Part shown: piece by piece, positions 7,593 to 23,130 of the stretch
How the letters are laid out: each line of letters begins with the position of its first letter
How positions within the stretch are numbered: position 1 is the stretch's first letter
From: Deltaproteobacteria bacterium
GTDB taxonomy: Bacteria > Bdellovibrionota_F > JAHFAK01
Assembly (NCBI GenBank): GCA_023250585.1
Contig: JAHFAK010000011.1
Coordinates: 1-34,491, forward strand
Direction of reading: 5' to 3'
DNA: 34,491 nucleotides
The notes under the pieces: generated by a model
Seen by the model: the letters and a program-made list of their open reading frames with translations, nothing else
The model's database searches: none
What the model was told of the DNA's origin: nothing
Position numbers and translations under genes: made by a program

Positions 7593-7743
7593 GGAACCTC
7601 TGAAAAAGGTCCATCTGTGTCGTTGCACACAAGAGTCACAACCCTCACATACTACCGGAGTATGCTCCGGTTATGACTTTGCGTGCGCCTTACATCTGGA
7701 CCTTTTTGAGAGGTTCCATTAAATATGAGTTTTTCAGAGAGTC
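7593..7743 (-). repeat. 150-bp imperfect palindromic dispersed repeat, copy 1
   Basis: Read on the minus strand, this unit starts at the base after the TAA of the upstream DOMON gene and ends with AGAGGTTCC, 18 bases before the ATG of the next gene. Positions 7593-7717 form a long hairpin: GGAACCTCT and AGAGGTTCC are the termini, AAAGGTCC/GGACCTTT lie inside them, and CCGGAG/CTCCGG is near the tip. It is about 84% identical by eye to 22536-22683, in the same orientation relative to the gene before it. Confidence 0.85.
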
Positions 7744-8253
7744 TTATAATGTAATAGTGACTTTTGCTTTCTTTTTATGTTTTTTGGTAAATGAATCATC
7801 TTCTCCCGTTGCTAAAAGTATTTTGTATTCTTTTCCAGGGATAAGTTTTTGATCATATTTGTCGCCTGAATCAAGTGGAATAGAAAATTCAATCGTTGTT
7901 GTTCCATTTGTTTCACTGCCCTTTTTGGTAAGAATATTGTCTTGTCCCCCGAGTTCTACATCGGCGCTATGTCTTTTTTCTTTTGTTCCAAAATCATCAC
8001 GAATAAAAACGTTTCCATCTTTTACATACCCAATAATAATGTTTGCGTCCCTCATGACTTTTGATGGATTAAAACCAACGCCAATCCACCCAGTCGTGGC
8101 TGCTGAGAGTTTGATCACAAGATTTTGCGCCTCGACTTTCCATTCGAACGCAATATCTTTTGCGACAACTTTTTTTAATGAATCCTTTTTAGCGTCTTCT
8201 GCAAAAGCTGTAAGAGAATATACTAAAAAAAATACGAATATTATTTTTTTCAT
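7744..8253 (-). CDS. Periplasmic DOMON-domain protein
   Basis: The 169-aa protein starts at the ATG at 8253, preceded by GAGG; a GTG six bases upstream overlaps the ribosome site and is rejected. Residues 1-19 are a signal peptide ending in TAFA. The remainder is a single DOMON domain with GWIGVGFNPSKVMRDANIII, then GNVFIRDDFG, GSETNGTTTIEFSIPLDSGD and LLATGEDDSF. It is clearly paralogous to the DOMON protein encoded downstream but lacks the Thr-rich linker, and it has a basic C-terminus (KKHKKKAK). It follows the beta-barrel gene by 8 bp in one operon. A haem- or ligand-binding role at the cell envelope is inferred from the family. Confidence 0.8.
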   Translation of the reverse strand: MKKIIFVFFLVYSLTAFAEDAKKDSLKKVVAKDIAFEWKVEAQNLVIKLSAATTGWIGVGFNPSKVMRDANIIIGYVKDGNVFIRDDFGTKEKRHSADVELGGQDNILTKKGSETNGTTTIEFSIPLDSGDKYDQKLIPGKEYKILLATGEDDSFTKKHKKKAKVTITL

Positions 8254-11899: not shown

Positions 11900-12373
11900 A
11901 TGCCAAGACGACGAGAAGTTGCAAAACGGACCATTTTAGAAGACCCAAAATATAAGAGTAAACTTGTTGCAAAGTTTATTAACAGTCTTATGATAGGCGG
12001 GAAAAAGAGTGTTGCTCGCGGGCTTCTTTATAATGCTCTTTCTATACTCGGTACAAAACTTAAAAATGAAGATTCTCTTAAGGTTTTAACAAAAGCAATT
12101 GATAATATAAAACCAGTTATCGAAGTAAAATCACGTCGTGTTGGTGGATCGAACTATCAAGTTCCCGTAGAAATTCGGGGATCACGCCGTGAAGCACTTG
12201 CCATTCGTTGGGCTATTCAATATGCACAACAAAGAGGCGGCAAATCAATGGAAGAAAAGCTTGCCGCTGAACTTGAGGATGCTTATCATAATAAAGGATC
12301 TGCAATTAAGAAAAAAGAAGATACTCATAAAATGGCCGAAGCAAATAAAGCTTTTGCACATTTTAGATGGTAA
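11900..12373 (+). CDS. rpsG: Ribosomal protein S7
   Basis: S7 nucleates assembly of the 30S head and contacts the E site. The 157-aa product starts [10 protein letters not shown] and keeps [26 protein letters not shown] and the [15 protein letters not shown] ending. AAGGAG precedes the ATG. The last 42 coding bases plus 17 downstream bases (12332-12390) are duplicated at 13832-13890 beyond an inserted ATPase gene, so rpsG is separated from fusA, its normal operon partner. Confidence 0.98.
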
Positions 12374-12390
12374 CCATATTTCCTCGACTG
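12332..12390 (+). repeat. Direct repeat, rpsG 3' end (intact-gene copy)
   Basis: This 59-bp segment matches 13832-13890 with a single difference (position 12383 C, 13883 T), which lies outside the coding part. The offset is exactly 1500 bp. Similarity stops abruptly at both ends. Confidence 0.9.
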
Positions 12391-12430
12391 CGACACAATT
12401 TACTCAATACGTGTTTTGTCTAAGATACAA

Positions 12431-13705
12431 TCATGAGTTTTCCAAAATAAACTCATCAGCTGAAAGGATTTTAATAGTTTTATTTTCTAATTCAATTGTA
12501 TCATTTTCATTATAAGTAATTATATATCCGTTTTGTTTTTTCATTTCATTCATAAAATGCATAAGTGAATTAATTTCTCTTTTTTTTGTTTTTTCATTTT
12601 CCATGCTATATGAAGCTTGATATAGATTTTTATTATCAAAAAAATCAACTTCATACTTTTCTCGTAAATAAAAAACGTTATCATTTTTATTAATTAAATA
12701 ATTTAATATTATTTGTTCAAATTCTTTTGATATAGAATCTATTGGAAATGTCCCTAATTGTAAAAACCCATTATCGGTTACATAAAGTTTTTTTGCCGAC
12801 TTAAGCTGCTCTTTTATTTTAAAATGAAATTTATCAATTGTTTTTACAATAAAAGCATCTTCAAAGTATCTAAGATATTCCTTTATTGTTTTATCGTTTA
12901 TATTTAATGCATTTGAAAGTAATTTATAATTTATAAGACCACAGGCATTAGACATAATATAATAAAATACTTTTTCTATATCATAATGATGCCGAATCTG
13001 ATATCTTGGAATTATGTCATGAAAAATTATACTTTTTGCATAACTAATCAGAATTTCTTTTTTAATGCTTTCATTGTTTTCATAAAAAACTTCAAAAAAG
13101 CCACCCCACTTTAAATATTCATCAAATGCTCTTCTTATATCAATTTTATTTTTAATTCTTTGAATTTCATCTTTGTGCTCAATGCCTTTATAATTTAAAA
13201 ATTCTCGGAAATTAAAGGAGCTTAAACTAATATTTAAACAACGACCAGTTAAAAGTGTATGTAAATCACTTGATAAAAGAGAAGAATTTGATCCGGTTAC
13301 AACAAACTTAACATTTTGAGTTTCATATTTATTTTTAACAAATACTTGCCAATTCTCGAAAAATTGAACTTCATCGATAAAAAAATAAATTTTTCCTTGT
13401 GGATTTGCAATTTTTATATATTCATCAAATATATGGTTTAAGTAATTGATATTTTGTTTATGCTGAATAAAGAATGGATGCTCAAGATTTAAAAATAAAA
13501 TATTTTTAGAATTTACTCCTGCTTCTATTAAATGATTTATAGCCTGTTTTAAAAGTGTGCTTTTACCGCATCTTCTTATACCCGATATTGTAATAATTTG
13601 TTTGGGCTCTAAAAACGCAATAAGATCTTTCAATTTTTCCCTAATAATTCCTGCTTGAATCTTGTTTTGCCAATGTAAATTTTGTTCTACTAATACATTT
13701 TTCAT
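12431..13705 (-). CDS. AAA-family ATPase with DUF4143-type C-terminus
   Basis: The 424-aa protein starts at the ATG at 13705 (GGAG six bases upstream; the frame also extends to a TTG at 13717). The Walker A motif is SGIRRCGKST (41-50), Walker B is IYFFIDEVQ (106-114), and the sensor-like strand is FVVTGSNSSLL (135-144). The C-terminal half has a winged-helix region (NALNINDKTIKEYLRYFEDAF) and a nuclease-fold-like YEVDFF/LYQASYS segment, as in the DUF4143 family. These stand-alone ATPases are common in archaea and host-associated bacteria, and their role is unsettled. The gene has a consensus promoter of its own, faces rpsG, and is flanked by direct repeats of the rpsG end. It is more AT-rich than its neighbours. 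Confidence 0.85.
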   Translation of the reverse strand: MKNVLVEQNLHWQNKIQAGIIREKLKDLIAFLEPKQIITISGIRRCGKSTLLKQAINHLIEAGVNSKNILFLNLEHPFFIQHKQNINYLNHIFDEYIKIANPQGKIYFFIDEVQFFENWQVFVKNKYETQNVKFVVTGSNSSLLSSDLHTLLTGRCLNISLSSFNFREFLNYKGIEHKDEIQRIKNKIDIRRAFDEYLKWGGFFEVFYENNESIKKEILISYAKSIIFHDIIPRYQIRHHYDIEKVFYYIMSNACGLINYKLLSNALNINDKTIKEYLRYFEDAFIVKTIDKFHFKIKEQLKSAKKLYVTDNGFLQLGTFPIDSISKEFEQIILNYLINKNDNVFYLREKYEVDFFDNKNLYQASYSMENEKTKKREINSLMHFMNEMKKQNGYIITYNENDTIELENKTIKILSADEFILENS

Positions 13706-13746
13706 GCAGTACTCCAAATAATTACATTTTTCGTATTATAACTACT

Positions 13747-13776: not shown

Positions 13777-13831
13777 ATTTTATTCCTGACTTACAGAACG
13801 AAAATAGGTACTATCCCACGCATTCATCAAC

Positions 13832-13890
13832 ATGGCCGAAGCAAATAAAGCTTTTGCACATTTTAGATGGTAACCATATTTCTTCGACTG
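13832..13890 (+). pseudogene. Displaced copy of the rpsG 3' end
   Basis: The segment holds the last 13 codons and stop of S7 ([13 protein letters not shown]) plus 17 bases of downstream sequence, repeated 1500 bp from the intact copy. No upstream rpsG sequence is recognisable. It marks the far edge of the ATPase cassette. Confidence 0.9.
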
Positions 13891-14052
13891 AGACTCAAAA
13901 GTCCCATTTTTATTCTACAAATTTTCTTTGTTTTTATAGGTAATAGTATAAAAATATAATAATATTAAAAACTTAGACTTTTTAAATTTTGTGGTATTTA
14001 TTTTGCATATCTAAATTAAAAAGAACATGTTAATAACTTATTGAGGTATTGT

Positions 14053-21908: not shown

Positions 21909-22535
21909 TTGGGTCAGAAGGTACATCCAACAGGGTTTAGATTAGGTATTTCTAAGACATGGAATTCGAAATGGTATGCAGATAAAGACTATAAAGAAAT
22001 GCTTCATGAAGATTTACGTTTGCGACGTTACTTCAAAAAAACATTATATCATGCTGGCATTGCTAAAGTAGAAATTGAAAGACCTACATTAAAGAATTTA
22101 AAGATTAATCTTTTTACTGCAAAGCCTGGATTAGTAATAGGGAAAAAAGGCATTGGAATTGAAAACTTGAAAAATGATATTCAGAAAATGGTGAATAAAG
22201 ATATTTTTGTTAATATAAAAGAAGTGCGTCGTCCCGATATAGAAAGCCAGTTAGTAGCAGAGAACGTTGCAATGCAACTCGAGCGAAGAGTAGCATTTCG
22301 AAGAGCAATGAAAAAGAATATTACTAGTGCATTACGTCTTGGCGCTAAAGGAATTAAAATTAGCTGTTCCGGAAAATTGGCAGGTGCAGATATGGCAAGA
22401 ACTGAATGGTATAAAGAAGGACGAATTCCTCTTCATACACTCAGAGCAGATGTAGACTATGGTTTTGCTGAAGCGCGAACTACATTTGGTGTTATTGGCG
22501 TAAAAGTGTGGATTTTTAAAGGAGAGATTCTTTAG
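21909..22535 (+). CDS. rpsC: Ribosomal protein S3
   Basis: S3 lies at the mRNA entry channel of the 30S subunit. The 208-aa product starts at a TTG (21909) with a full AGGAGG ahead and begins with the invariant [16 protein letters not shown]-type segment ([19 protein letters not shown]) and the C-terminal [22 protein letters not shown] are present. The stop is followed directly by the palindromic repeat. Confidence 0.97.
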
Positions 22536-22683
22536 GACCCTCTAAAAAACTCGTATTTCAAGGAACCTCTACAAAGGTCCAGATGCGAGGCGCACGCAAA
22601 GCCCCAACCGGAGCATACTCGGGTAGTATGTGAGGATTGTGGTTTTGCGTGCAACGATGCAGATGGGCCTTTGTAGAGGTTCC
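22536..22683 (+). repeat. 150-bp imperfect palindromic dispersed repeat, copy 2
   Basis: The unit starts at the base after the rpsC TAG and ends with AGAGGTTCC, about 20 bases before the ribosome site of rplP. Positions 22562-22683 form a long hairpin: GGAACCTCTACAAAGG pairs with CCTTTGTAGAGGTTCC, GCACGCAAA lies opposite TTTGCGTGC, and CATACT opposite AGTATG is near the tip. It matches copy 1 (7743-7593 read on the minus strand) at about 84% by eye. Confidence 0.88.
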
Positions 22684-22716
22684 TTTAGTTTACGTATTTT
22701 ATTACGGAGATAGTGT

Positions 22717-23130
22717 ATGTTAATGCCGAAAAAAGTAAAATATAGAAAAGTCCAAAAAGGTAGAATGCGCGGAGTGGCCTATCGAGGATCTAAAATCGAT
22801 TTCGGTGATTTTGGACTTAAAGCAACTGAATGTGGATATTTAACTAATAAAGAAATTGAAGCAGCGCGAATTGCTATTAATAGATTTATTAAAAGAGGCG
22901 GAAAATTATGGATTAGAATTTTTCCTGATAAGCCTCTCACAAAGAAACCTGCAGAAACACGAATGGGTAAAGGAAAAGGATCCCCTGAAGAATGGGTGAG
23001 CGTAATAAAACCAGGCCGGATACTTTATGAATTAAAAGGTATCCCGTTTGAAGTAGCTAAAGAAGCTTTTAGACTTGCTTCTCATAAACTTTCTCTTTCA
23101 ACAAAAATTGTAAAAAGAGGAATTATCTAG
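22717..23130 (+). CDS. rplP: Ribosomal protein L16
   Basis: L16 contacts the A-site tRNA on the 50S subunit. The 137-aa product contains [42 protein letters not shown] and [22 protein letters not shown]. The start at 22717 has ACGGAG at proper spacing; an ATG two codons later is spaced less well. It is separated from rpsC by the palindromic repeat. Confidence 0.97.

Follow-up and report, generated by a model that had tools for sequence, protein, structure and literature searches.

ERIC and comparable mobile hairpins

ERIC repeats, also described as IRU or RU-1, became known in 1990-91 and serve for fingerprinting worldwide. To our knowledge, their origin, their mover and their function are still open questions. 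They are imperfect palindromes of about 125 nt that occur in multiple intergenic copies in enterobacteria and Vibrio, carry terminal repeats and form a hairpin with a GGAGCNTAC..GTANGTGA core, a tandem G.A loop and AAGGC and AACGCAG segments. The element described here, which lies between rpsC and rplP in the window (the whole 34,491-nt stretch of DNA that was analysed), is alike in all these respects, and its core resembles the ERIC core GGAGCTTAC..GTAAGTGA. The two differ in the letters of the core stem, CTTAC/GTAAG in ERIC and CATAC/GTATG here, as well as in their termini and host lineages. In addition, ERIC are described as having TA at their ends (PMC2229807); the duplication flanking the present element is 4 bp long. 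In Yersinia, ERIC affects mRNA decay (reviewed in PMC2229807, PMC10969869).

Another system that is similar by description is QMITE2 of Coxiella burnetii, a repeat of 150-190 bp that folds into a very stable hairpin (-85 kcal/mol), has copies with or without a 5' extension of ~40 nt, lies at the 3' ends of genes and is also present in other proteobacteria (PMC5896051). Judged again by description, it differs in its target repeats of 7-11 nt, in the GTAG REP inside it and in being a target for IS1111 (PMC5896051).

The element between rpsC and rplP

The rpsC gene occupies positions 21909-22535, with a TAG stop codon at 22533-22535, and rplP starts at 22717. The inserted unit, an ERIC-class MITE-like element of subfamily A, spans 22535-22683 of the plus strand and matches a cross-phylum covariance model (R3) with 107.4 bits. 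Its first G supplies the last base of the new rpsC stop codon. A sequence-only reading of the window had placed a 148-bp unit directly after this stop; the insertion itself stands, but it starts inside the codon and measures 149 bp. From the 3' end of the element to the rplP start there are 33 nt, in which GGAG (22706-22709, plus strand), the likely rplP ribosome-binding site, lies outside the element.

On both sides the element is bordered by the target-site duplication TTTA (22531-22534 and 22684-22687, plus strand), which would be 5-6 bp long if the ambiguous flanking C and G were counted. All internal features are on the plus strand. The outer 5' terminal repeat GGACCCTCTAAAAAA (22535-22549), recognised from the flank alignment and the sequence, is a degenerate inverted copy of the 3' end; this further copy of the terminal repeat and a spacer make up 22535-22561 (~25 nt), a stretch predicted to stay outside the paired part of the fold. 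The palindrome proper, 22562-22683 (~122 nt), forms one long imperfect hairpin. Its 5' outer arm, which is at the same time the inner terminal repeat GGAACCTCTACAAAGGTCC (22562-22580), is followed by the conserved internal-loop segment AGATGCGAGGCG (22581-22592), which reads AAGGC in most relatives, and by the apical core AACCGGAGCATAC..GTATGTGAGG with its tandem G.A internal loop (22605-22635), which is invariant or almost so across phyla. The descending side consists of the 3' internal-loop segment GTGCAACGATGCAGAT (22649-22664; TGCAACGCNGCAGAT in relatives) and the 3' outer arm with the 3' terminal repeat GGGCCTTTGTAGAGGTTCC (22665-22683). Folded as RNA, the element is predicted to reach -81.7 kcal/mol (z -9.75), and none of 200 shuffled sequences folded as well. 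It has no Rfam match at gathering score; the Rfam matches in the window are tmRNA and tRNAs only.

The insertion accounts for a spacer of 181 nt between rpsC and rplP, compared with 13 nt, and no repeat, in the sole genome of the same class that was compared. In 16 other genomes measured automatically, the same-class one among them, the spacers range from -26 to 87 nt. The long spacer of the window is not unique sequence inherited from an ancestor.

The second copy in the window (7593-7744, minus strand) lies between two minus-strand genes, directly 3' of one stop codon and 18 nt ahead of the next start, so that here too a stop codon precedes it and a ribosome site follows, and is flanked by TATA. 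It is 85% identical to the copy between rpsC and rplP, its own fold has a z of -10.4, and both copies carry the core in sense orientation. The arm pairs quoted from the two copies in the sequence-only reading, ACAAAGG with CCTTTGT and CAAAAAGG with CCTTTTT, are present.

A dispersed family with the marks of a MITE

The repeat seen in the window belongs to a real, dispersed family. BLAST finds ~22 full copies in the genome, and a covariance model of the own family (R2) finds ~40 distinct places, many of which, owing to the palindromic nature of the unit, give a score on either strand. Two subfamilies can be told apart, A with the core GCATAC/GTATGT and B with GCGTAT/ATACGT, so that compensated pair differences occur even in the core; besides them there is one very divergent copy (L220). 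In both subfamilies a GGRNCCTCTNAAAAA-type terminal repeat is found at the outer 5' end, again ~27 nt inward, and inverted at the 3' end. The terminal inverted repeats are GGRCYCTCTNAAAAA / TTTTTNAGAGGTTCC, and the ends of the element are GGGNNCCTCTNAAAAA. In being multicopy, shorter than ~400 bp, non-coding and provided with terminal inverted repeats and a target-site duplication, the element has the required features of a MITE.

The duplication is seen across the family. Of 34 copies, 20 share a flanking word of at least 4 nt, where 9.0 would be expected and 2000 shuffles never gave more than 19, and in-register 4-bp flank repeats exceed those of shuffled flanks with z 5.3 in subfamily A and 4.7 in subfamily B, overlapping registers of 5-6 bp scoring about equally. 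The duplicated words are T/A-rich (TTTA, TATA, TAAA). TA stands at the junction of some copies, and in some the duplication is missing. When genes are called simply as ORFs, 32 of 39 copies are at most 20 nt away from a gene 3' end, in both orientations. Relative to the core, the neighbouring genes are oriented -- in 15 cases, +- in 10, ++ in 6 and -+ in 3, so that between co-directional genes 15 copies are antisense and 6 sense. Insertions between a stop codon and a ribosome site, as in the S10 operon, also occur in unrelated gene pairs (L005, L016, L018, L021, L211). One copy (L023:1380-1573; G000:C152:11361-11433) has kept its right half but carries unrelated sequence in place of the left, and looks recombinant or truncated.

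Searches of the genome by end pattern and with PF01609 found no autonomous element with the same ends, which would support but is not needed for classing the repeat as a MITE, although the assembly, which is in 164 contigs, may have lost it. Two DDE_Tnp_1 transposases are present and were rejected as movers, as their ends differ. The short GG(G)NNCCTCTNAAAAA terminal repeats and the 4-bp T/A-rich duplications have a parallel, which we take as a lead only, in IS5-family-derived MITEs; the difference is that the present genome yielded no transposase with such ends. An attC site was also considered and rejected, because the conserved letters of the element lie at the apex of the hairpin and not at its ends. 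A blastn search against phage and plasmid records gave no match and the core pattern described below is found in only one viral contig, which argues that the element is not phage-borne.

Taken as a whole, the locus is probably best explained by transposition of a non-autonomous, MITE-like, ERIC-class element into the stop codon of rpsC, an element that has been kept for its own spread. The insertion would have duplicated 4 bp and left both rpsC and rplP intact.

Concerted change in the arms and the strand that folds

Covariance over the copies, a check proposed with the sequence-only reading, reveals compensatory change far beyond what recent duplication would leave. Among 23 own copies, 16 of the 44 pairs show double changes; the 46 double-change cells compare with 11.1 +/- 3.2 in shuffled alignments and with 1 to 7 after sliding the pairing partners out of place. 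Relative to the subfamily consensus, 45 double changes preserve a pair and 4 break one. Covariation is likewise elevated in 38 cross-phylum cores (0.326 versus 0.112 shuffled) and in 68 full-length cross-phylum matches (0.665 versus 0.160), the latter in an alignment (A3) that was fitted to the structure and therefore inflates pair counts.

Such a pattern may also arise from templated repair, that is, quasi-palindrome correction or gene conversion between arms or copies, in place of selection on pairing. The ratio of 45 compensated to 4 broken double changes would fit this, and in single copies (L183, L178, L179, L148) long stretches of the arms have been replaced on both sides together, which, for L183, L178 and L179, points to templated correction as a contributor. 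Private changes of the terminal repeats appear in concert at both ends of the palindrome in L215, L022, L179, L213 and L216, and in L215 the outer, third copy has changed together with the other two; these concerted changes suggest templated correction as well. Repair of this kind should nevertheless erase imperfections, yet the unpaired bases GGA/GA, AAGGC and AACGC persist across phyla, and it does not predict the wobble asymmetry found inside the helices. As a replacement for selection on pairing, templated repair is somewhat unlikely.

The asymmetry concerns mismatches within helices in the cross-phylum set, counted on an alignment in which G.T and A.C carry the same weight. When two paired neighbours were required on each side, 39 G.T stood against 16 A.C (p 0.003), and 42 G.A against 7 T.C. 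Over all aligned positions without the neighbour filter, the same set gave no difference (114 G.T and 119 A.C), a null attributed to the A.C contributed by conserved internal loops; the asymmetry thus depends on leaving these loops out. Since the filter was chosen after this null, the p-values err somewhat on the optimistic side, although the result is the same at three stringencies. A wobble count of 141 versus 39 in alignment A3 was discounted because that alignment favours G.U. Constraint on the duplex or on both strands predicts equal numbers of G.T and A.C, so that folding of the core strand alone is the better reading. As far as comparison of sequences can tell, the mismatches thus show that one strand, folded single-stranded, is what appears to be constrained, with RNA and single-stranded DNA both compatible. 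The earlier proposal that the two copies, differing at about 16% of positions, keep their pairing through selection on RNA structure holds in that the fold of one strand is kept, but not where it is tied to this operon.

Copies are found in either orientation to their host genes, which makes the host transcript an unlikely reason for the fold; a transcript of the element itself, or a stage as single-stranded DNA, would be the likelier one. The element's strand would then be kept as a hairpin through recognition, either by a transposase acting in trans or by a host factor to which the hairpin would be presented as single-stranded DNA or within a transcript of the element.

A class shared across phyla

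A search with the core pattern GAGCATAC N2-8 GTATGTGAGGATT found more than 100 places in species genomes. The hosts include Bacteroidota (Alistipes, Cryptobacteroides), Desulfobacter, Bdellovibrio/Bacteriovorax-like bacteria, Legionellales and Coxiellaceae, and further Rudaea and other Xanthomonadales, Pantoea and Halomonas. Across phyla the arms have wholly different sequences and remain palindromic. Certain letters recur outside the search pattern, namely AACC before the core, AAGGC in the left arm and AACGCNGCAGA in the right arm. The own-family model R2 matches cross-phylum repeats down to 1e-22, and the cross-phylum model R3 has matches in 9 of 116 genomes (the own genome included), each of a different family. 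Several of the R3 matches have compensated cores that were not selected by sequence and that a sequence pattern would miss, for example GGAGGCGTAT..ATACGTTGAGG and GAAGCACAC..GTGCGTGAGG.

In Alistipes and other Bacteroidales (L110:3958-4111, L131, L075, L088), the class occurs in tandem or near-tandem pairs, with outer arms that are almost unique to each copy and still complementary. Three Alistipes species genomes (L034, L043, L055) carry the element at seemingly the same place with the same flanks, which indicates that single copies can persist through speciation. The genome of L138 also contains a different repeat of ~215-230 bp with GGAACCTCTGCACAA at both ends (G118:C153:7862-8093, C182:33780-34012, C190:9475-9692), possibly another MITE family with related ends.

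Model R3 was built without any ERIC sequence, and it nevertheless matched all five ERIC loci tried, aligning in register, with modest bit scores: 27.6 and 28.6 bits for two from E. coli, and 31.9-39 bits for three from Klebsiella, two of which are the same ilvC-ilvY place. In a 50-kb stretch of E. coli, ERIC was the only match (E 1.9e-4). The own-family model R2 had no match to the two E. coli ERICs, and similarity at nucleotide level to the 127-bp consensus of the narrow enterobacterial ERIC family is thus not seen. The relation between the element and ERIC is a distant, structural one, seen only at the level of structure (models R1 and R3).

Sub-threshold Rfam matches were obtained for class members elsewhere. 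ERIC of E. coli and Klebsiella matched V_AS5 (RF02818) or Ysr49 (RF02766), and the gammaproteobacterial members L046, L068, L116 and L138 matched sX9 (RF02228) on the opposite strand of the element; all of these are below the gathering threshold, and the elements of the present genome match none of the three. The matches suggest that some class members are transcribed, and sX9, a Xanthomonas sRNA, may derive from this class. An STnc70 match near L138 comes from a terminator that has nothing to do with the class.

Each lineage has terminal repeats and outer arms of its own, so that common descent rests on the internal fold. Together with the ERIC scores of 27-39 bits, this lineage specificity would fit unrelated MITE families that had converged on a similar hairpin. 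Against convergence, which we regard as unlikely, stand the asymmetric unpaired bases, identical in letter and in position, and the presence of AAGGC and AACGCNGCAGA outside the search pattern. The fold common to ERIC and the repeats of distant groups suggests that ERIC is a branch of a much wider family. The fuller proposal, to which we would give an even chance, is that ERIC, far from being peculiar to enterobacteria, is a single branch within a pan-bacterial class: mobile hairpins whose arms are free to change in concert, while the asymmetric core (GGA/GA, AAGGC, AACGC) is fixed through recognition of the folded single strand by a widespread putative factor.

No description of the cross-phylum class, nor of its core letters or of "ERIC-like" MITEs, was found in the open-access literature; the coverage excludes the original ERIC papers (Hulton 1991, De Gregorio 2005, Wilson and Sharp 2006, Zo 2011), which makes priority uncertain. 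The shared fold provides comparative data that ERIC alone never offered: it identifies the bases under constraint and the strand that folds, and it gives a model with which the moving enzyme or a host factor can be sought. It may also help to explain ERIC-PCR bands in bacteria far from the enterobacteria.

Consequences for the S10 operon

The pairing had originally been read as evidence of selection on RNA structure, and the hairpin could have been recruited as a regulatory or processing element of the S10-operon RNA. Its stable fold, its location between stop codon and ribosome site, the sense orientation of the core in both window copies and the effect of ERIC on mRNA decay in Yersinia (PMC2229807, PMC10969869) are all compatible with recruitment. 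The arm covariation, however, characterises the dispersed family with its source copies and is older than the S10 insertion, and for this reason it provides no evidence of selection on the S10 transcript. Pairing is kept equally in the ~40 scattered copies, 15 of the 21 co-directional ones being antisense; the element is absent from the same-class relative, and similar insertions are found in unrelated gene pairs. Recruitment is accordingly improbable, and selection on the operon's transcript is not supported. An ordinary intrinsic terminator or REP-type palindrome, for which the location after stop codons would speak, is very improbable given the ~122-nt palindrome, the terminal repeats and target duplications, the lack of a T-run directly 3' of the stem and the absence of an Rfam gathering-score match.

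If the element is a mobile one kept for its own spread, the hairpin in the S10 operon would be mostly tolerated, perhaps serving as a site of mRNA processing or stability. For the operon the message is modest, namely that an element inserting at a stop codon can be tolerated even in a ribosomal operon as highly conserved as this one.

The window contains two other repeats. One is a 138-nt direct repeat (593-730 and 1756-1893; 96% identical, spacing 1163) that is unrelated to the hairpin, and the other is a 70-nt direct repeat (12329-12398 and 13829-13898; 94% identical) that flanks a minus-strand ORF at 12431-13717.
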